Assembly (NCBI GenBank): GCA_028673005.1
Contig: CM054115.1
Location: forward strand, 54,325,738 to 54,389,737
Direction: 5' to 3'
DNA length: 64,000 nucleotides
Origin: Tanypteryx hageni
Lineage: Eukaryota; Arthropoda; Insecta; Odonata; Petaluridae
Shown: in pieces, positions 1,278 to 63,905 of the stretch
Position numbering within the stretch: the first letter of the stretch is position 1
Layout of the letters: the number at the start of each line of letters is the position of its first letter
The notes under the pieces: model-generated
What the model saw: the letters and a program-made list of their open reading frames with translations, nothing else
Told to the model about the DNA's origin: nothing
Databases searched by the model: none
Translations under genes and position numbers: made by a program

Positions 1278-1557
1278 AAAATATAATTTTAAAAATATAC
1301 TTTCCTCAGGTATCTCCAAATTTCGGCAAAAAGCAACGTCAACAAAAAATATTCGACGGCCATTCGCATCAAAACGTGACATACCACCTCTTACACTTTC
1401 ATTTACCCTAAACCAGTGGTTCTTAATCTTTTTCGTCACATGTCCCATTTCTGATCTTCTAAGAACCTCACGCAACCATTCTTATAATCTAAAACATCCA
1501 CGTCCCCCTCCATTCTCCAGAAAAAATTTCTTGTATGTTTTTAATGGTTTTTATCAT

Positions 1558-3815
1558 AAAATTACACTGGTCTGCATTGATTTTGATGTTGAAACTTGCA
1601 GCTGTTTTTTACACATTTTTGGCGCTGATTGCGAAAATAAAAACAGTTTGGTTTAGTTGCAAACAGCCTTGGTCTCTTTTTTCAAAATTTACGTCAAGGC
1701 TAGAGGTTGCCATGTCTTGTAATTGGCAATTCTGCTTTGAGGTGACCGTTTGACCTTGAGTAGACTATGCGGTATCTCTTTCCGGCAGGCGAGTTAGTTC
1801 AGTTGCATTTTTGGTGCAGTAGTGTCCACAAGTCGCTGCTGGGTGATTCATGTGATACTTATTGTGACTGTAAACATGGAATCACGAGAGTGTGTGAACA
1901 ATCCTTTTTGTTACATATGTGGTAGTTATGTTGTACAGAAGCAAAGACAGAACATCACGGACTTTGTGAAAAAAGCATATTTTGCGTATTTCAGAATGAG
2001 AGTAGGAGATCAAGACAAGTCATGGGTGCCACAAAATATGTCGTAAGTGTGTCGAAGGTTTGCGACTGTGGATGAGGGGTAAGAAGAAAGCCATGCCATT
2101 TGCAATCCCTATAGTATGGAGGGAACTTCGAAATCACGGAGAAGACTTATTTTTGCTTGATAATAGTAGATGGATAAAGTGCAAAAACCAAATAAGGTAT
2201 TGTTTAACCCAACATTCAATCTGCAATTAAACCATTGCCATATGGACCCGAACTGCCGGTACCCTCCCTCCCAGATGTTTTGGAGAATCTGCCATCGGAC
2301 CGTGAACCTGAAATTTCTGGTTCTGAGGAGGAAACTGAATGTTATCAACCAGAAATTCGTGATTGTGCACCAACTTTGTTCACATAACATGAGCTTAATG
2401 ATTTGGTCAGGAATTTAAACCTAGCAAAAGATTCGGCAGAGCTTCTGGGATCTAAACTAAAAGCCAAGAATCTGTTTTCTGTAGGTACGGTTTTTTCATG
2501 ATGCATCGTGAACAAGAATTAGTTCCATATTTTTCTGAAGTGGGCTCAATGGTCTATTGCAATAACATTTGTTCCTTAATGAACTACTTTGGAATTGTCT
2601 ATCGAGCAATCGAATAGCGGTTGTTTATCGACTCTTCAAAGAGAAGCCTCAAAGGAGTTCTCCGTCATAATGGTAATGTGTATGCATCGATTCCTGTGAC
2701 CCACTCAGTGTATTTGAAAGAAAGTTATGAAAACCCTCAACTTCTCTTGGAGAAAGTGCAATACGAAGATCATTGTTAGTTTTTGTGTGGAGATTTCAAA
2801 GTGATTGGTATATTGCTTGGTTAACAGTCTGGATGCCATGTTTTATGTGTGAGTGGGATAGTCGAGCAAGACATGTACACTGGGAAAGAAGACTATGACC
2901 ACCTCGGAAAACTCTTACACCTGGTTCAAAAAACATAATACACGAGTCATTGATTGATCCTAAAAAGGTGCTGTTGCCTCCCTTGCATATTAAATTGGGT
3001 TTGATGAAACAATTTGTAAAATCCCTGAACAAGGAAAGTGATTGCTTCAAATACATCTGCAAAAAGTTTCCTTCACTCACAGTCAACAAAATAAAATAAG
3101 GAATTTTTGTAGGCCCTCAAATCCGAAAGTTATTCCAGGACAAGGAATTCGAAAAAACTACGGATGAAAGTAAAAAACAAGCATGGAATAGCTTCATAAA
3201 TGTTCTCCATAACTTCTTGGGAAACAACAAGGATCCAAATTACAATATGATCGTTGAAGATATGCTGGAGAATTTTCGAAAACTGGGTTGCAATATGAGT
3301 CTAAAGGTGCAATTTTTGCACTCTCATTTGGAATATTTTCCGAAAAATCTAGGAAGCGTTAGCGAAGAATGGGGTGAAATATTTCACCAGGATATCAAAG
3401 AAATGGAGAAGAGGTACCAAGGACGGTTGAATGTGAATATGATGGCGGACTATTGTTGGATGCTGAAAAGAGACAGTTCCTGCGAAGTGAGTTCCGGAAA
3501 GGAGTCAAACAAACGGAAATTTAATCCTTTGAGCACCTAAAAATAAGCATAAATACCTATGACATATTGGAGTATTCATTTCCTTTGTGTTCTGTATACC
3601 ATTGTAGTGAAATGTAAATTAAGGAGCCATATTACAATTACAGAAAATATTTCCTTTCGTTTTTTTTAACTTATCAAAAATTCTGACTTGATAGAGCAAA
3701 AAATATGTTATTTTTGAAATCAGCATATGGAAAAGATTTAAAAACATCTGTCATATTCAAAACATCGATAAATCTTTTCAAAAATGCGGACTAGTGTTAT
3801 TAGTAATAATAACCA
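1558..3815 (+). mobile_element. Orphan-gene TIR element, copy A (degenerate)
   Basis: The DNA around the decayed orphan gene resembles the flanks of the better copy at 55.4-57.9 kb. The 5' side has GCGCTGATTGCGAAAATA near 1623. The 3' side has TTTTTGAAATCAGCATATG at about 3710-3729, which is its approximate reverse complement, and CTAGTGTTATTAG near 3790 resembles the outer end of the other copy. These are long, badly decayed terminal inverted repeats. The outer limits are estimates. The whole sits inside a hAT element. Confidence 0.45.
1876..3540 (+). pseudogene. Decayed copy of arthropod orphan gene family (candidate transposase)
   Basis: The conceptual translation is homologous along its length to the protein at 55801-57402. 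The N-terminal block has the same Cys spacing (CVNNPFCYICG, then KICRKCVEGLRLW). The middle has LFIDSSKRSLK, GDFK and CEWDSRA. The C-terminal block at 3217-3540 matches to the end: EEWGEIFHQDIKEMEKRYQG, then MMADYCW. The frame is broken by a shift around 2040, further shifts around 2150-2500, and several stop codons, so no product is expected. The strongly conserved ERFHQD motif reads EIFHQD here. I chose the ATG at 1876 because it aligns with the conserved start of the other copy. Downstream, 3540-3700 still resembles the family's 3' flank. The biochemical role of the family is unknown to me; a transposase role is inferred from the flanks. Confidence 0.8.
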
Positions 3816-4307
3816 ATTTTTGTGAAATAGATTTCTAACATAAGTGTTTCTATGTAAGCTGAGTTCTATTGTGCGAGTTTATATAGTGAATTCTAATCTT
3901 AAATGTTTGTTTCGAAGCACATTGCACAGCTGACAAGCAAGCGTCATTTTTGGGCAGTCCGCAATAAGTTTTCATTGTCTAAAAATTTCGTGTAGTACTT
4001 TATATATTATTTCTACGTATAATAAATCCATTCGTCTGCACTGCATCTGTTATTGAGGTGATAAGTTGACAGAGCATTTGGATACATCAGTACAAGACTT
4101 ATACATGTAGTCTAAACAGCTGTAAAATAAATGAAAAATATATTAATTTGGGCAAATCGGACAGCATTAGAAAAATGTGAGAGATGGAAATTTGAGGCAG
4201 AACTGATTTTGGTCCAAAACATTTACGAGTCCTCCCCCCCTCTCCTAGAATCCTCATACGCCCCCTAGAAGGGCGCGGCTTCCCGGTTGAGAACCACTGC
4301 CCTAAAC

Positions 4308-7004: not shown

Positions 7005-7080
7005 ATATGTCGACGACTCTTACAGAGGAGGATATAACATCATTCTATATAGACGTTCCTTACAGAGGAGGATATAACAT
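7005..7080 (+). repeat. Two tandem Helitron-like 5' ends
   Basis: The block CTTACAGAGGAGGATATAAC occurs twice, 40 bp apart, preceded by TCGACGACT in the first and TCTATATAGACGTTC in the second. The same sequence forms the 5' end of the units at 23980 and 61890, so these are two stacked 5' termini without their bodies. Confidence 0.65.
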
Positions 7081-7081
7081 A

Positions 7082-8143
7082 CTAGTAGTTGGTGCTTGCA
7101 TACTGCAAGCATTTCATCTCACCTTGAAAAAACATTCATTTTTCAGACAGACATTTTATCATTACAAATAGTCTATTAATTCTAAAGATTTCAACGTCGC
7201 AGCGATTTTGTTTTTCCCACATGTAAAAATAATAGATTAAAAAAATCTCCAAATGTTGCAATTTTAAAAGATTTATACTTTCCCCATTATGGGGTACTAA
7301 TGCTACATATTTTAGCCAAATTTTAAAGTTGTAGCTTTTCTAGAAGTATAATAATATTTTTCTAATTGTTTAAATTTAAATAATTTTTGACGGCCGCCAC
7401 ATTTCATATATGGTAGAATTGAAATGTTTATTTGTGCAAATTTACTACTCTGTAAATAATTTGAAAATTTCAGCTTCCTAGCTCATCCCGTAGTACCTAA
7501 ACAGTTATCCAATTGTTTAAACTTTAAGAATTTTTAACTGCCAAACAAATTAAAATATCAAAATTTGTATAATCCCTATTTCGTTTTTTTTTTAAGAATT
7601 CTACTTATAAAAAAAATTTCAACTCCGTAGTACACGCGAAAATATATAAACCATGAAAATTTGTTTAAACAATTGCGAATTGGCAGTTAAAAATTCTTAA
7701 AGTTTAAACAAATAGATAGCTGTTTAGGTACTATGGGATGAGCTAGGAAGCTGAAATTTTCAAATTATTTTCAGTATAGTAAATTTGCACAACTAAACAT
7801 TTCAATTTTACCATATATGTATTGCGGCGGCCGTTCAAAATTATTTAAATTTAAACAATTAGAAAAATATTTTTTTATTTCTAGAAGTGCTACAACTTTA
7901 AAATTTGGCTAAAATGTGTAGCATTAGAACATTATAATGAAGAAAGTGTAAAATTTTTAAAATTGCGACATTTGGAGATTGTATTAAAATATTATTCTTA
8001 CACGTGGGAAAAACGAAAATCACTGCAGAAATGAAATCTTTAGAATTAAATGACTATTTGTAATGTTGAAATTTCTGTCTGAAAAATGAATGTTCTTTTA
8101 ATGTGAGATGAAATGCTTGCAGTATGCAAGCACCAACTACTAG
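7082..8143. mobile_element. Two Helitron-like 3' halves in inverted orientation
   Basis: The left copy (7082-about 7680) is on the minus strand and the right copy (about 7681-8143) on the plus strand. Each outer end is the family's 3' terminus: hairpin GCTTGCA-N3-TGCAAGC followed by 11-12 bases and CTAG (right hairpin at 8115-8131, CTAG at 8140-8143; left CTAG at 7082-7085). Hairpin plus CTRR is the hallmark of Helitron 3' ends, and the base outside each end is T in the element's orientation. The arms 7082-7543 and 7681-8143 pair around a spacer of about 137 bases. Confidence 0.75.
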
Positions 8144-8163
8144 TATAACATATATATAACATA

Positions 8164-8880
8164 TAGGAGGATACTAATGTTTACGCACTTCCAGATGAGC
8201 TGGAGATTCGAAATTTTATTCTTAGGTAGGATTTTATGCAAAACCCACTAGAAAAACGAAAATCTTCAAAAAGTGCAACAATGCGGCCGCTAAAAATTCG
8301 CAATTGTTTAAACAAATTTTCAAGGTTTATGTATTTTCGCATGTGCTACGGAGCTGAAATTTTTTTTATAAGTATAATTCTTAAAAAAACGAAATAGAGA
8401 TTATACAAATTTTGATATTTTAATTTGTTTGGCAGTTAAAAATTCTTAAAGTTTAAACAATTGGATAACTGTTTAGGTACTACGGGATGAGCTTGGAAAC
8501 TGAAATTTTCAAATTACAACGTAGTGAATTTGCACAAATAAACATTTCAATTTTACCATATATGAAATGTGGCGGCCGTTAAAAATTATTTAAATTTAAA
8601 CAATTAGAAAAATATTATTATACTTCTAGAAATGCTACAACTTTAAAATTTGGCTAAAATATGTAACATCAGTACTCCATAATGAAGATAGTGTAAAATT
8701 TTTAAAATTGCAACATTTGGGGATTGTTTAAAACTATTATTTTTACATGTGGAAAGACGAAAATCGCTGCGGAGGTGAAATATTTAGAATTAAAAATATA
8801 TGTGTAATGATGAAATATGAATAATGAATGTTTTTTATGTTGAGATGAAATGCTTGCAGTATGCAAGCACCTTCTACTAG
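8164..8880 (+). mobile_element. Non-autonomous Helitron-like unit
   Basis: Begins GGAGGATACTAATGTTTA and ends with hairpin GCTTGCAGTATGCAAGC (8852-8868), then CTAG (8877-8880), followed by T. The body is four degenerate modules of roughly 140-155 bp, with the AGCTG/AAATTTT anchors near 8197, 8351, 8489 and 8630. Non-coding, with no RepHel protein. It closely resembles the units at 23980, 61890 and 62732. Confidence 0.75.
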
Positions 8881-9539
8881 TATTTCATACTTGGAACTAT
8901 ATTCAATAATCTTTAATGAAAAAATGTTACATTTTATGGCCATCTGATTGTAAATCGCTGTAAATTAATAATCCATGTTATTCCACATATTAAAGGAGAA
9001 TCTAGACTGACACCCCTAATTCCAATAGCCGGACGTAAGAAAAAATTGTGGAAGTAATACTTCTCATTAGTATTTCAACACGACTGAAACGTTTCTCTTA
9101 AATTCCACCAGTTGTTCAAGCAACTGAAAAGCATTCCGAAACTTTCATTTTGAGAAAGACTTGCGTTTAGCAGTTTTTTCATTCGCCTGAAGTAGTAGAG
9201 ATGATATATTTGGCTAAAACTATAAGTCAAATATGAGTTTTTGAGGTTGCGTTAAAAATATAACCTATCGTTGGGAAAAACAGTAGATTATCTCTTTTCA
9301 CGAATAAATAATTTCGTCTGAATAATCTTGCTTCAGTGAAAATTTTATAGTTTTTAACGCGGACGCTTCCAAAGGGACAAACGGGTTCGCCTCTCTTATT
9401 TTATAAAAAATAGATTTTTTCTATTTATATTAGCTGCATAGCAATAAAGGAGATGAAGGCGAATATTCTGTAATAAATGGGGACGTTGAATCAAAGAAAG
9501 TGTTTGAGACTTCCGGAGAAATAAGTAACTTCGAGATTT
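8881..9539. other. AT-rich DNA, no gene seen
   Basis: No recognisable gene, RNA or repeat terminus. Confidence 0.5.
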
Positions 9540-12125: not shown

Positions 12126-12285
12126 TAGTAGATAGGGAGGCGGTTATCGTGTTTGTATTCCAATGCTAGGGTGACAGGTTCGAATGTTACCGAGGACATG
12201 GTTATGTGTTTATTATCGTTATTACGATGGTTTTAAAAGGCCGTTAAAGGCTGATTATAAGCTGGTTAAAAATAAATAAAAAGAG
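12126..12285 (+). repeat. Diverged SINE related to 1084-1277
   Basis: It has a B-box-like GGTTCGAATGT near 12179 and then the family's AAAAGGCCGTTAAAGGCTG and an AAATAAATAAAA tail. The layout matches the better SINE at 1084-1277, with many substitutions. Confidence 0.6.
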
Positions 12286-23768: not shown

Positions 23769-23979
23769 CTTACTCTCTTTAACACTCAGTTATGTGAATT
23801 TTATATTTATTGTTTGCTTATTAGTGCCTATCAAAGTTGATCTCATTAATTTTTATTTCAATTTGAACTTCGTACTTAATTCATGCATACTCGTCATATT
23901 TGATGGGCAATTACGCTAGTATTTTTTATTAACTTTATGATGCTGGTTAAAAAATCAAATCCTCATTATTCGATATCAA

Positions 23980-24727
23980 TCTATATAGACGTTTCTTACA
24001 GAGGAGGAGGAGGATACTAATGTTTAGGCACTTCCAGATGAGATGGAGATTCGAAATTTTTTTCTTAGGTCGGATTTTGTACAAAACCGACTATATAAAA
24101 CGAAAATCTTGAAAAAGTGCAACAATTCGGCCGATAAAAATTCGCAATTGTTTAAACAAATTTTCAAGGTTTATGTATTTCCAAATGTTCTACGGAGCTG
24201 ATATTTTTTTAGAGATAGGAATTGTAAAAAACGAAATATAGATTATACAAATTTTGATATTTTTATTTGTCTGGCAGTTAAAAACTCTTAAAGTTTAAAC
24301 AAATAGGTAACTGTTTAAACATTACGGGATGAGCTAGAATGCTGAAATTTTCAAGTTATGTACAGGGTAGTGCATTTGCACAAATAAACATTTGAATCTC
24401 TCCATAAACATATTGCGACAGCCGTTAAAAATGTTTAAAATTTAAACAATTGGAAAAATGTTATTTCACTTCTAGAAGTACTACAACTTTAAAATTTGGC
24501 TGAAATGTGTAGCATTAGTACCCTATAATGGAGAAAGTATAAAATTCTTAAAATTGCAAAGTTTTGGGATTGTTTTAATCTATTATTTTTACATAAGGGA
24601 AAAACGAAAATCTCTCCGGAAGTGATATATTTAGAATTAAAAAAGTATTTGTAATGATGAAATATGAAAAATTAATGTTTTTTTATGTTGAGATGATATG
24701 CTTGCAGAATGCAAGCACCAACTACTA

Positions 24728-24728
<1 letters not shown>
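23980..24728 (+). mobile_element. Complete non-autonomous Helitron-like unit
   Basis: Starts TCTATATAGACG (23980) directly after an A, and ends with hairpin GCTTGCA-GAA-TGCAAGC (24700-24716) and CTAG (24725-24728) directly before a T. This is the A|T insertion rule, the 5' TC and the 3' hairpin-CTRR of Helitrons. 749 bp, no protein. The body has the same four modules as the unit at 8164-8880. Confidence 0.8.

Positions 24729-24776
<48 letters not shown>
24729..24776. repeat. (TA)24 microsatellite
   Basis: Pure TA repeat of 48 bases abutting the CTAG end of the Helitron-like unit. Confidence 0.95.
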
Positions 24777-45560: not shown

Positions 45561-45855
45561 ATCACAACTCAATGCATAATACCCAAATAACATAATAAAA
45601 ATTGGGTTTACTTAATACAAAAATATAACCTTTTTGATACCATTTCCTATACACTATATGCTACTTCTTAACTTCAAGTCACAGGAACTCTCGTCACAAC
45701 AGCTTAGGTATCACTCAATACATAATACCCAAATTAAATAACAAAAATTGAATGTACTTAATACAAAAATTTAACCTTTTTTGATAGTAGTTCCTATACA
45801 CTATATACAACTTCTTGACTTCATGTCACAGGAACTCTCGTCACAACAGCTTAGC
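45561..45855 (+). repeat. 146-bp tandem duplication
   Basis: Two units, starting at about 45561 and 45709, share CATAATACCC (45575 and 45721), TACTTAATACAAAAAT, TTCCTATACACTATAT and CACAGGAACTCTCGTCACAA. Identity is high (about 85 percent by eye). Confidence 0.8.
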
Positions 45856-53958: not shown

Positions 53959-55400
53959 TCTGAACCCCAAAAATATTTGTTGTATAGAAATACGACAAGG
54001 ATGACAAACAGAAATGATCAGAGAACAATCTATTTGATATTTATTTAAAATATTGAATAATCTGAATAAATATTAAATTTTATACTGTGGAATAGAATAT
54101 TGAAATATTTTAAATCATAAAGAAATATAAAACAAGTATAAAATATTCTCCGTAATGAATATTATTTAGCTAGATATTAAACGAGAGAAAAAAATAAATA
54201 AATATTAGATACTTATTACGGTCTAGTGAGCAATAAAAATCAATAAATAAACTATGGAAAATATAGAGAAGACACATATGATCAAAGAAAGTAATACAAT
54301 GAAACATTGACAAACGAAAAAAATCCAGGGACTAATTTACAGAAAATTAGAGAAACGTTTTTGCTGAATCTTTTACAAGTCCTCTCTCTATAACGTTTCG
54401 ATTTCCGACGTGTAATCTAATTGGCTTGCAATTCATCTTCTTGTTTGACCTTCAGACCCATTATCCGACATATTGCCAGCCACCCCATTTCACTCTTCAA
54501 TATAAAATGGCTACTATCACTTTGATGGAACGACTGAAATAAATAGAATTTCGGAAAAAGTGGACCATGCCAAAAAATATTGCACTAAAGAACTTATTGC
54601 CGAGGCTGAAAAACATTGAAACTTAACAGAACATTTCCAAATCTTCCTCAAAAAGTCTTCAATTGGACACTGCAAACGCTCTTTTCTTAATTCCTCCCAT
54701 AAATGAGCCCTCCTCAAATGTCAAATGGATTTTCTGAACTATGGAGACGGGACATTATTATCCAACCGATATCTCTTCCAAGGGTTGGAAGAGATTTAAT
54801 AAGGACTGACCACGGGAAATTAAGTGTCAAAAGTAGCATATAAATACCATGATCACTTACTGGGTCACGTGTATGCATTCACTACAACGATTATAACACA
54901 AAAACAGGGTAATAACACAACTATGGAAAGATTATTCACACTTTTGCATTGATCACTATCCACTCATACGCACGCATTTTACCATCACTCGAACTGAGTT
55001 CTGAGTTGTATGAACAACATTTCCACTCTTGGCGCTTGATTTGACGACTTCCTGATTAACTTTACGGTTACATTGTACGTAGTTTCTGTCCTCTTTTTAA
55101 TCGGACAATGTCATGTGATGCCAATCGTTCGATCATTGTCGTTACAATTTAGGCACTCACAGCCTATACTCGGTATACATAGATATGGATGGATGATGAT
55201 GTGTTATTTTTAGAAAAAAAAATACTACGCATCATCTCTAATTGCACCCTATGAGGATTATGGAAGTTAATTTCCCAAGTATCAAAATAAGAAGCGAACA
55301 AACTGATCAGTAATTAACCCCTTAAACGGGGTAAGTGACTTGAGTCACAGATTGAATTCGTTTCCAAGGTGGGGAGCATTACTATATTCGCTTACCCCAG
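53959..55400. other. No gene; one perfect 11-bp hairpin
   Basis: May include leader DNA of the hAT pseudogene. A palindrome ATCTCTTCCAA-GGG-TTGGAAGAGAT lies at 54771-54795. Otherwise AT-rich without coding signal. Confidence 0.4.
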
Positions 55401-55401
55401 T

Positions 55402-57866
55402 TAAGCAGATAACACAGCCCAACACACATTTTGGTGCCTGCTATTTTTTAACTGTTTCTAGGTAATTTTTGGGTGTAGAATCCAAAATAACTGTCAGATT
55501 TAGTCTATCAGATCTAGCTTTTGAAGTACGCTATATTGACCTCTTTTAGAAAAAAATCATCTTTTTTTAACTCATGTACATTTCAAGTTATAAGTATTAG
55601 TATTTGCGACAAAGGCTCATTAAAAAACAAAGAATACAAAGTAAGGTATTTAATTCACAAAGTAGATAAATATACATTCATGGCTTATCACTTAAAAATT
55701 TTCTTTTATACGATTTTCTAGCATGGAGTTTAGTAGGACAGTCTCGCTGCAGACTCCAACAGTAGTCGGCCATCATGTAGGTATCCCATCTTCCTTGATA
55801 TCATTCTTCCATTGTCTTAATGTCCTGATGAAATCTTTCCCCCTGTTCTTCACTGTAATCACCTAGGTTTTGTGGGAATCGATCTAAGTGGTTGTGGAGG
55901 TAGTGAAGTTTTATGCTCATGTTACAACCGAGAATATTAAATTTAGAAAGCATATTTTCCACTAATTCTGTGTAATTCTCTGCTTTATGATTGCCAAGAA
56001 AATGTTGTACTACTTTAACAAATGAGCACCAAGCATTAGATTCAATCTCGTTCATTGCTGCGGTAAATTGTGGATCTTTTATAAGCTGTCTTATCTGAGG
56101 GCCATCTAATATGCCTGCTTTCAGTTTTTCCATGCTAATCCCAGGAAATTTACGTATTAAGTACCCAAAGCAAAGTCCAACTCGATTTAACGCCTTCACA
56201 AATTGCTTCATAAGTCCCAACTTGATATGCAAAGGTGGAAATATGATTTTCTCTCTCGCAACCAAAGGTTCGTTGATTACGTTTTCTTTTCCTGGAACCA
56301 TGACGTTTCTTAGGGGCCAATTTTTGTTAACCCAGTGCTGATCCTTAGCTCTGCTGTCCCAAAGACATAAAAAACAAGGATATTTTGTGTATCCACTTTG
56401 CTGTCCAAGGAGGAAGTTTACCATTTTTAGATCGACACAAATCACCCACTGATGTTCTTCATACTTAATTTTTTTCAGGACTAGTGATATTGTCTCGTAT
56501 TCCTCTTTCAAGGTGGTAGAATGACCAATGGGTATTGCGCCATATCTGTTACGGTTGTTCAAAAGAACAGATTTTAAACTACGTTTTGAGCTATCAATAA
56601 AAAGACGCCATTCGTCTGGTGTGTATTCTGATAAACCCATTGCTTCTAAGAGTCTTCTTAAATCATTACAGAATACTAGGTTATTTTCCTCAGAGAAAAA
56701 GGGCAGCAGATCCTTTTCTCTTTTACGATAAAATGTAATATTAGTACCCGGATTAAGCAGATTCTTTTCTTTTAATCTGGAGGCAAGTAATTCTGAAGAC
56801 TCCTTGGAGAGGTTCAGGTCTCTACTAAGATCGTTCAGTTCTTGTTGATTGAAACGTTGGGGCTTGTCTGAATCTGCTTCAAAATCACTATAGTGATCAC
56901 GATAACTATCGTTGTCTGATCGCACATATTCACCTTCATCAGATGATGATGGTTCGGTTTCGTCTTCCGAGAGTCTAGGCAGACTGCTGAATGATGAAAT
57001 AGGGATTTCGTCGGAATGCGGTACCGGTCTCTTTGCTGAATTAAGATCAGGATATGTCCATTTGTGTCTATTGTTCCGATTAATGCCTTTGATATTTACG
57101 ATACAAAAATAGCAGTCATCGTAATGGTTCCTCGGTTCCCTCCAAACCATTGGTACTCCAAACTTTAGGCACTTTCTCTTTCCAATTGTCCACTGTCGCA
57201 AATGTTCAACGCACATTTTACACACCAAATGTGGAGCCCAAGCTTTATCCTGATCTCCCAAGTGGACGCCGAAATAAGCAAGATAACACCGTTTTACAAA
57301 GTCAGAAATAGGTTTTCTGCTTTCTTTCAAAGTGTATTCGCCACATACGTAACAAAAAACGTCGGGGTGATTCACACAGCTACGTCTGCTTGTGGATGCC
57401 ATGGTTTTAATTAACTGTTTTATGACTAAAGAACGCCAAAAACAAAAACAAACTGAAAGCACAACTGCAACTATGTAAACACAATCGTAAACTGAACCGG
57501 GTACGGCAGTGCTAGACACGAGGTAATATGGGCGGATGAGTTCGTGGTGGAGGAGTGGGGGTTAGGCAGGTACAAAAGGTCGAAGTTTTACGGTCATCGG
57601 GAATACCAAATAACTCTAATTGCCTAATTATATAATTTAGTTTTAGGCACCACGTTTCCTGTAAATATACCATTATTTCATTATTTGTGCCTGTTATTAA
57701 AACGAAAATCAATTAGCCTGTATCTCAAAAACTAGAGCTGCTACGAAAAAAGCCAGGTATTTTTGGAATCAGCACATCAAATATATCCAAAATCAGTTCT
57801 CAGTTTTCCGGCACCAAGAAAAAAATTTAATTTTGTTGGCTTGTGTAATCAATCTATTACATTAGT
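55402..57866 (-). mobile_element. Orphan-gene TIR element, copy B (near intact)
   Basis: The DNA on the two sides of the gene is inverted relative to each other. Innermost, TATCAGATCTAGCTTTTGAA (from 55506) corresponds to the reverse complement of 57720-57743, with 19 of 24 bases equal. Moving outward, both arms show TCCAAAA-TA-CTG, TTGGTGCC (55431 on the left; reverse complement GGCACCAA at 57810 on the right) and ACACA-GCC-AACA. The arms run at least from 55402 to 55530 and from 57720 to 57866. Target duplication not determined. The only gene is the orphan ORF. Confidence 0.6.
55801..57402 (-). CDS. Arthropod orphan protein, candidate divergent transposase
   Basis: Longest real open frame in the window. 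The frame opens at 57519, but I take the ATG at 57402 as start (533 residues), because copy A begins there too and the 39 upstream residues look like translated leader. In the numbering of the longer frame (starting at 57519): Cys clusters C48, C56, C59, C100 and C103 (zinc-binding candidate, ZAD-like spacing), then C136 and C139; an acidic low-complexity linker at 183-220; IDSSKRSLK at 308-316; VDLKMVNFLLG at 362-372; CFLCLWDSR at 382-390 with HW at 395-396; PPLHIKLGLMKQF at 428-440; GPQIRQLI at 473-480; and EEQGERFHQDI at 557-567. I recognise it only as one of the multicopy uncharacterised proteins of insects and other arthropods. It has no named domain that I can assign. The TGA at 55801 appears premature: 40 more codons in frame (55681-55800, stop at 55678) keep homology to copy A (YQGR, MMADYCW). 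No introns are evident. Confidence 0.75.
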   Translation of the reverse strand: MASTSRRSCVNHPDVFCYVCGEYTLKESRKPISDFVKRCYLAYFGVHLGDQDKAWAPHLVCKMCVEHLRQWTIGKRKCLKFGVPMVWREPRNHYDDCYFCIVNIKGINRNNRHKWTYPDLNSAKRPVPHSDEIPISSFSSLPRLSEDETEPSSSDEGEYVRSDNDSYRDHYSDFEADSDKPQRFNQQELNDLSRDLNLSKESSELLASRLKEKNLLNPGTNITFYRKREKDLLPFFSEENNLVFCNDLRRLLEAMGLSEYTPDEWRLFIDSSKRSLKSVLLNNRNRYGAIPIGHSTTLKEEYETISLVLKKIKYEEHQWVICVDLKMVNFLLGQQSGYTKYPCFLCLWDSRAKDQHWVNKNWPLRNVMVPGKENVINEPLVAREKIIFPPLHIKLGLMKQFVKALNRVGLCFGYLIRKFPGISMEKLKAGILDGPQIRQLIKDPQFTAAMNEIESNAWCSFVKVVQHFLGNHKAENYTELVENMLSKFNILGCNMSIKLHYLHNHLDRFPQNLGDYSEEQGERFHQDIKTMEE

Positions 57867-61689: not shown

Positions 61690-61889
61690 ACCACTAGATT
61701 GTTTAATTAATTTACGACGAAGGTATTACGTGAACATACAGATTATATTACAACTATTCGAGTAAGGTCTGTTTTATGTAATAGTCGATTGTATTATTCA
61801 TTACAATTGATAATGAAAATAGTCGGTGAACCTAAATTTCGATATTTCCTTGGCATCAGTACGGGAATTTCAGTTCGTAGACATAATCA
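61690..61889 (+). repeat. R4 copy c, left part
   Basis: Ends GATATTTCCTTGGCATCAGT and TTTCAGTTCGTAGACATAAT, matching 59070-59135 in copy b. Interrupted here by two Helitron-like units; resumes at 63655. Confidence 0.65.
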
Positions 61890-62659
61890 TTATATATCGA
61901 CGACTCTTACAGAGGAGGATATAACATATAGGAGGATACTAATGTTTAGGCACTTCCAGATGTGCTGGAGATTCGAATTTTTTTTCTTAGGTAGGAGTTT
62001 GTGCAAAACCGACTAGAAAAAAACGAAAATCATGAAAAAGTGCAACAATGCGGCCGCTAAAAATTCGCAATTGTTTAATCAAATTTTCAGGGTTTAGGCA
62101 TTTCCGAATGGGCTACGGAGCTGAAATTTATTTTATAAATAGAATTCTCAAAAAAAACGAAATAGAGATTATACAAATTTTGATATTTTAATTTTTTTGG
62201 CAGTTAAAAATTCTTAAAGTTTAAACAAATAGATAACTGTTTAGGTACTACGGGATGAGCTAGGAAGCTGAAATTTTCAAATTATTTACAGAGTAGTAAA
62301 TTTGCACAAATTTACAATTCAATTTTACCATATATGAATTGCGGTGGCCGTTAAAAATTATTTAAATTTAAACAATTAGAAAAATATTATTTTACTTATA
62401 GAAGTGCTACAACTATAAAATTTTTCTAAAATGTGTAGCATTAGTACCTTATAATGAAGAAAGTGTAAAAATTTTAAAACTGCAACATTTGGGGATTGTT
62501 TTAAACTATTATTTTTACATGTGGGAAAAACGAAAATCGCTGCGGAGGTGAAATCTTTAGAATTAATAGAATATTTGTAATGATGAAATATCTGTCTGAA
62601 AAATGAATGTTTTTCAAGGTGAGATGAAATGCTTGCAGTATGCAAGCACTAACTACTAG
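61890..62659 (+). mobile_element. Complete non-autonomous Helitron-like unit
   Basis: The 5' end is TATATATCGACGACTCTTAC with AGAGGAGGATATAAC. Body modules have AGCTG-type anchors near 61962, 62118, 62256 and 62404. The 3' hairpin GCTTGCAGTATGCAAGC is at 62631-62647 and CTAG at 62656-62659, followed by T. No coding capacity. Confidence 0.75.
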
Positions 62660-62731
62660 TATGTTATATCCTCCTCCTCCTCCTCCTCCTCCTCTGTAAG
62701 GAACGTCTATATATAATGATAACATATAACA
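62660..62731 (-). repeat. Inverted Helitron-like 5' end with expanded GGA repeat
   Basis: On the minus strand: TATATAGACGTTCCTTACAG followed by eight or so GGA units and ATATAAC. The plus-strand TCC repeat is 62669-62693. Other copies have two to four GGA units. Confidence 0.75.
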
Positions 62732-63654
62732 GGAGGATACTAATGTCCAGCCCAAACTACAAGAGCTAGAAAGCTGAAAGTTTTAGTTTTTGTAGATATG
62801 ATGAAGAAATCTTCAGATAAAATGAGACTTCTTACCTAAGTTACATGAGTTCGACTCCAGAAATTCCGAAAGTTGCGTTTTTTCCCATAAGAAAAGCATT
62901 GCGCCATTTTTGTAAATTAATTATGGGCACTTGCCGGTAAGCTAGAAAGACGAAATTTTAAGTGTTGCTAAATGGCCGCAATATCTATTGAGAATTTTTG
63001 TTACTTTTGCTTACAGTGTCTTGGGTTCGACTCCAGAGACCCCGGTATATCTCCCATAAGTTAGCATGGGAAAACGCAATCCAGTGTTTAGACCAATCTA
63101 ATAAGTTTAGGAAGCTGAAATTTTGCAAGATTATAGACCTTTTCTCATAACCAACTATAAAAATCGAAAATTTTAAAATTGTAAATTTTAGGGGTTGTTT
63201 AAACCCCACTTGAACATTAAAGTTTAATAATTTTTTGGGTACTACGGGATCAGCTAGGAAGCTGCAATTTTCAAATTATTTACAGAACAGTGCAATTGCA
63301 CAAATAAACATTTCAATCTCTCCATATGTATATTGCGGCAACCGTTAAAAATGTTTAAATTTTAAACAATAATAAAAATATTATTTTACTTCTAGAAGTC
63401 CTACAACTTTAAAATTTTGCTGAAAAGTGTAGCATTAGTACCCTATAATGGAGAAAGTGTAAAATGTTTAAAATTGCAACATTTGGGGATTGTTTTAAGC
63501 TATTATTTTTACATGTGGGAAAAACGAAAATCGCTGCGGAAGTGAAATCTTTAGAATTAATAGAATATTTGTAATGATGAAATATCTGTCTGAAAAATGA
63601 ATGTTTTTTCAAGGTGAGATGAAATGCTTGCAGTATGCAAGCACCTTCTACTAG
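62732..63654 (+). mobile_element. Variant Helitron-like unit
   Basis: Begins GGAGGATACTAATGTCCAGC and ends with the family hairpin (63626-63642) and CTAG (63651-63654), followed by A rather than T. The first 450 bases differ from the other units and hold two repeats of a block with GGGTTCGACTCCAGA-like sequence (about 62847 and 63027). The last 420 bases match the family. Confidence 0.7.
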
Positions 63655-63905
63655 AATTAAGATATTAATATTTTCTTTTTTGACATGATTATATAAATCG
63701 TACAGAACGCCTATGCTCGGATGTTTGCACTCATGATGTGTGCATCTTTCCACTCTTCATTACTTATTTCACACGTAGTAATGGGAAAGTATCGTTTTAA
63801 TGAAAAAAATCGATTTCGAGATTTCAACGGAAATACACGTTTTGAAGCCCCTGAACTAGTTTTCACCATTTTCTCTATGATTTATATGTGTGTTTGTATG
63901 TGATA
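63655..63905 (+). repeat. R4 copy c, right part, running into R3
   Basis: 63655-63760 resumes R4 (TTTTTTGACATGATTATATA, ATGATGTGTGCATCTTTCC). From about 63780 it is R3 (AAAATCGATTTCGAGATTTC, GGAAATACACGTTTTGAAG). R3 and R4 may thus be parts of one larger repeat. Confidence 0.65.

Follow-up and report, generated by a model that had tools for sequence, protein, structure and literature searches.

We analysed a 64,000-bp window of the Tanypteryx hageni genome (contig CM054115.1, positions 54,325,738 to 54,389,737 of the forward strand; positions below are counted from its first nucleotide) and found that the gene at 55801-57402 lies in an element that is, with a probability of roughly 95%, a DNA transposon of the cut-and-paste type, belonging to the Chapaev3 group in the CACTA-Mirage-Chapaev (CMC) clade. 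At the sequence level the basis is its ends, its inverted repeats, a 3-bp TWA duplication within ATWAT, its one transposase gene, and the existence of numerous near-identical copies and of empty sites. This element is called copy 2 below, and a degenerate element of another family in the same window is called copy 1. The features of copy 2 are as follows.

55413..57845, minus strand: Chapaev3 element, copy 2, 2433 bp, CAC..GTG ends; ends and duplication were read directly, and similarity to genomic copies stops here
55410..55412: target-site duplication TAA, with A before it; same pattern in 21 of 26 genomic copies
57846..57848: target-site duplication TAA, with T after it; same pattern in 21 of 26 genomic copies
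55413..55583, plus strand: terminal inverted repeat at the element 3' end, from repeat alignment against shuffles
57663..57845, minus strand: terminal inverted repeat at the element 5' end, from repeat alignment against shuffles
55801..57402, minus strand: transposase frame, 533 amino acids, truncated by a premature TGA
55804..56865, minus strand: catalytic part (residues 180-533) with a fold like that of RAG1 and Transib, carrying D270, D324 and E519/E522; from fold match and residue conservation
56968..57402, minus strand: N-terminal zinc domain, residues 1-145, ZAD-like; model confidence (predicted local distance difference test, pLDDT) 92.5, conserved cysteines

A preliminary description of the window, made from the letters alone, had stated that the flanks of the gene pair as inverted repeats. 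Alignment of 55408-55583 with the reverse complement of 57850-57663 gave a local score of 83.5 (top of 200 shuffles, 63.5), and the element ends only scored 77.5 (maximum of 61.0 in 400 shuffles), so that the pairing was borne out. The innermost 24-bp block matched at exactly 19 of 24 positions and the quoted blocks stood in the same order on both sides, as had been said; the outer bounds then given were too wide by 11 and 21 bp, the true ends being 55413 and 57845. The terminal inverted repeats are long and imperfect. A scan of the window for ATWA-CAC..GTG-TWAT returned 18 pairs, among which the two real elements matched 12 and 11 of 16 end bases; the pair at 54897-55972 also reached 11 of 16, and 16-base ends alone are therefore little proof. 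A small inverted repeat at about 55317-55410, suspected by eye, was not found by the repeat tool and is not claimed.

Next, the whole genome (1.68 Gb) was searched with the protein, which gave at least 89 matches (81 of 2890 candidates scored); the 30 best loci showed 94-100% protein identity, and each was set against the window's element extended by 200 bp of that element's own flank per side. By a terminal 16-base rule, both ends were present in 26 of the 30 loci, and in end-retaining copies similarity stopped within about 12 bp of CAC or GTG. The exact arrangement A-TWA|CAC..GTG|TWA-T was found in 21 of the 26 two-ended copies, and both window copies likewise carry the TWA duplication. Loci L006 and L007 have common flanks, as do L024 and L026, and these pairs are therefore segmental duplicates; 19 of 24 independent insertions had the exact duplication (12 TTA, 7 TAA). 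Point changes in the last three bases of the termini were seen in L003, L015, L018, L022 and L023. With the outer 160 bp as query, all 40 scored matches were at 98-100%. The 26 elements differ pairwise by a median of 0.024 (L025 and the internally deleted L029 included). The genome holds dozens of recently inserted copies of the Chapaev3 element. Locus L027 is inserted in a dispersed repeat that also occurs in the window: when its flanks were joined with one TTA, six uninterrupted window copies of the repeat matched across the junction, each with a single ATTAT. The joined flanks of L024 gave one weak match over the junction (69%) with no clean TWA-T, which we did not count as an empty site. 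The proposal that the gene sits in a mobile unit of its own, and the checks named with it, thus found support in sharp ends at CAC/GTG, terminal inverted repeats, a constant 3-bp TWA duplication (21 of 26) and the empty sites of one copy, L027.

A host gene family lying beside repeats and multiplied by segmental duplication would also give many similar genes, and segmental duplication is real here, as the common flanks of the L006/L007 and L024/L026 pairs and a series of partial matches at about 221-kb spacing on C9 attest. We regard this reading as extremely improbable, since flanks differ in 24 of the 26 two-ended copies, similarity does not extend past the element ends, and target duplications and empty sites are present. 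Differences among the copies at codon positions 1, 2 and 3 were also nearly equal (0.0273, 0.0285 and 0.0294), which means that the copies are drifting with no constraint to be seen, and not behaving as genes would. The C9 series comprises seven transposase matches at C9:161460637-162803795 (two of residues 40-533, five of 159-533) spaced by about 221-232 kb, which suggests a large tandem segmental duplication; two of the seven are L024 and L026, with their common flanks.

Three further observations concern the genomic copies of the transposon. Outside ATWAT, 15 of the 19 exact, independent insertions carry A at -8 and 13 of the 19 carry T at +8. A palindromic target longer than ATWAT is hinted at, but no more than that, since these positions were singled out once all had been inspected. 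The copy at C6:59518195 is 98% identical at its 5' end, yet shows 69% protein identity with 18 stops; aligned over its full length, it differs at few positions and has two small gaps, and the simplest explanation of its low protein identity is that a shifted frame was read as one. Genome matches at 45-69% identity look like more distant transposases and suggest several Chapaev3 families in the genome, although for at least one of them (C6:59518639) a frame shift explains the low identity.

The gene of copy 2 is a minus-strand open frame of 533 amino acids whose ATG ends at 57402 and whose stop codon lies at 55801-55803. Behind this premature TGA, 40 further in-frame codons match a tail conserved in homologues. 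Given the stop, copy 2 probably makes no working enzyme; because it keeps its ends, enzyme from another copy could in principle mobilise it. Frames of 568-574 amino acids were found in L004, L006, L007 and L013 (4 of 26 copies, 3 of 24 independent). The catalytic part gave fold matches to RAG1 and Transib, and the transposase is a distant relative of the enzyme responsible for antibody gene rearrangement. In the homologue alignment, D270 and D324 were conserved in 77/77 members, E519 in 76/77 and E522 in 75/77; these would be the DDE catalytic residues of an RNase H-like core, with either E519 or E522 as the catalytic glutamate. The C(2)C motif (C343 and C346) and the LH motif (L391 and H392) were present in 77/77 homologues, and the histidines of the H(4)H motif in 75/77 (H500) and 76/77 (H505).

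The preliminary description had called this an orphan arthropod gene with no domain that could be named. The label is easily explained: no Pfam model reaches its cut-off on the 533-amino-acid protein. No Pfam domain was found on any of the 120 relatives listed out of 2277 at E <= 0.001. The gene is, however, no uncharacterised orphan, as its protein fits Chapaev3 transposases, nor is it restricted to arthropods: the matches listed include relatives outside arthropods, in the lizard Rhineura floridana and in Hydra. No relatives were found among viral contigs, bacterial and archaeal genome contigs or phages; sequence searches of solved structures returned chance-level rows or nothing, and a viral structure library gave no match at E <= 0.001.

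The element agrees with published accounts of Chapaev3. In the excerpted text of Zhang et al. (2014, PMC4079192), Chapaev elements have CAC..GTG ends and 3-4 bp duplications, the Chapaev3 elements examined have a TWA duplication between A and T, and Chapaev3 proteins carry C(2)C, LH and H(4)H motifs; most are single-exon, with repeated horizontal transfer. The Chapaev3 elements Merrow, Garfield and Conan described there share with ours the ends, the TWA between A and T, the three motifs, a length of about 2.4 kb, a transposase of about 560-575 amino acids and an occurrence in many hosts; full-length Merrow and Garfield measure 2289-2455 bp and encode 556-562 amino acids. Compared by that description only, Merrow and Garfield have two exons, in contrast to the single exon here and in most Chapaev3. 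Among the closest known systems are also the Transib transposase and RAG1, whose fold the catalytic part resembles. Chapaev proper (DUF1280, PF06918) belongs to the CMC clade too and has CAC..GTG ends. The original Chapaev group makes a 4-bp target duplication, unlike the 3 bp seen here.

If the transposon instead belonged to another CMC branch (Chapaev proper, EnSpm/CACTA, Transib or an unnamed lineage) and had Chapaev3-like ends, it would share much of this, as C(2)C, H(3-4)H and mostly CA..TG termini with 2-5 bp duplications are common across the clade in the parts of PMC12730594 consulted. We consider it improbable, since TWA between A and T is what the excerpts of PMC4079192 report for Chapaev3 and what 21 of 26 copies show, and length, single exon and protein size fit Chapaev3 as well. 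Four points weigh against the Chapaev3 assignment. PF06918, which the excerpted text of PMC3985635 cites for Chapaev, is absent among the listed Pfam matches of the protein and the 77 members. In five of the 26 copies the duplication is not exact: L004 and L012 miss it by one base, the flanks of L015 and L019 are different, and the 5' end assigned to L025 is probably false. The placement was made by described features and not by a tree with Repbase proteins. Transposition, finally, is seen through its products in the genome. By its features the element is a new member of the known Chapaev3 group.

By its family, the transposase would pair the two inverted repeats. Family and fold together suggest that the N-terminal zinc domain may help to hold the repeats, that the RAG1-like DDE core would cut at CAC and GTG, that the ends would be joined across a 3-bp stagger in ATWAT, and that gap repair would duplicate TWA.

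The preliminary description had also noted another copy, with parts of the same flanking sequence around it. Copy 1 lies inside a further element:

1565..3796, plus strand: copy 1, 2232 bp with CAC..GTG ends, a degenerate Chapaev3 element from a different family; from ends read, frame pieces and a repeat test
1562..1564: copy-1 target-site duplication TTA, left, read at the ends
3797..3799: copy-1 target-site duplication TTA, right, read at the ends
1414..4299: hAT-like non-autonomous element holding copy 1, bordered at 1406-1413 and 4300-4307 by an exact 8-bp duplication, CCCTAAAC

The copy does exist: its frame, broken by stops and shifts, remains in pieces at 1885-3411 with 53% protein identity to copy 2 over the best piece, and its own ends pair together (score 58.0; maximum 45.0 in 400 shuffles). 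The flank sequence said to be common to both copies fared less well. Of four cross-copy end comparisons, one was marginal (5/400 shuffles reaching the score), one weaker (16/400) and two at chance level (44/400 and 62/400); the clearest common block, 3709-3746 against 57758-57795, spans 38 bp and is 76% identical. In the piece compared, 118, 146 and 61 of 192 bases were identical at codon positions 1, 2 and 3, a pattern that is the mark of past selection on the protein.

The location of copy 1 inside 1414-4299, with its 8-bp duplication, could be read to mean that the gene is cargo of the hAT-like element. The usual hAT duplication is 8 bp in the excerpts of PMC12730594. This cargo reading has very little credibility: within the hAT-like element copy 1 is bounded by ends and a TTA duplication of its own, and copy 2 and its relatives in the genome have CAC/GTG termini and a duplication of 3 bp; the 8 bp are found only at the separate element 1414-4299. 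We take the end sequence of 1414-4299 to resemble hAT ends. The simplest history is that the hAT-like element came first and the Chapaev3 copy 1 was inserted later.

We also compared the N-terminal zinc domain with ZAD (zf-AD, PF07776), the N-terminal dimerisation domain of insect C2H2 factors. Such a domain in Chapaev elements has been named Chapa (PMC4411706). The cysteine-rich domain is conserved in homologues, and Pfam RAG1_imp_bd matched 1/77 members (E 0.011). On the protein zf-AD scored 11.6 bits, far below its cut-off of 28; weak zf-AD matches occurred in 47/77 members (best E 0.0029), and FYVE gave a better single E-value (0.0015; 10/77 members). Unlike in ZAD, an extra cysteine/histidine group (H93, C97, C100 and H129) follows in the transposase. 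A profile comparison with four ZAD sequences argued against kinship (probability 0.1%; the 15 best of 50 column shuffles reached at least 0.4%). For a second profile, 30 host ZAD loci were fetched and 20 of them translated; the 10 that passed a pattern filter made up, together with 1pzw, a set of 11 sequences. This profile scored 17.7 (maximum 17.3 in 200 column shuffles) at a probability of 2.9%, with both cysteine pairs in register; with this profile the best of 120 full-length relatives reached 11.2 bits and the best of five shuffled N-terminal sets 6.6, the lengths differing. A search for ZAD relatives returned three short proteins, and among the papers searched none mentioned Chapaev together with ZAD, or the zinc finger-associated domain together with RAG1. 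Common ancestry of the Chapaev3 zinc domain and the ZAD of insect zinc-finger transcription factors is a tentative and rather doubtful proposal; if the resemblance were confirmed, a major insect regulator family would be tied to a RAG1-like transposase. Host ZAD exons with both C-x2-C pairs were seen at L031 (1465-1704, plus strand) and L032 (1357-1719, minus strand); many other host ZAD matches cover only about the second half of ZAD, as if an intron splits the domain.

The results give a name and a mechanism to a protein left uncharacterised in databases across many animals; such genes should be masked as transposons and not counted as gene families. With near-identical copies and whole frames, this host is a place to test Chapaev3 transposition.

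Elsewhere in the window, a dispersed repeat family occurs at 7039-8889, 23975-24739 and 61886-63671 (about 82-91% alike between places), and sequence of this family borders the element copies L021, L022 and L027 as well. A tRNA scan of the window found no gene; the stretch at 1081-1270 has by eye the look of a tRNA-derived short interspersed element, tRNA B box pattern matches lie at 1135, 20254 and 40989, and 1219-1268 matches 12231-12280 at 74%. At 45567-45854 a 147-bp unit occurs twice in tandem, the two copies being 88% alike.
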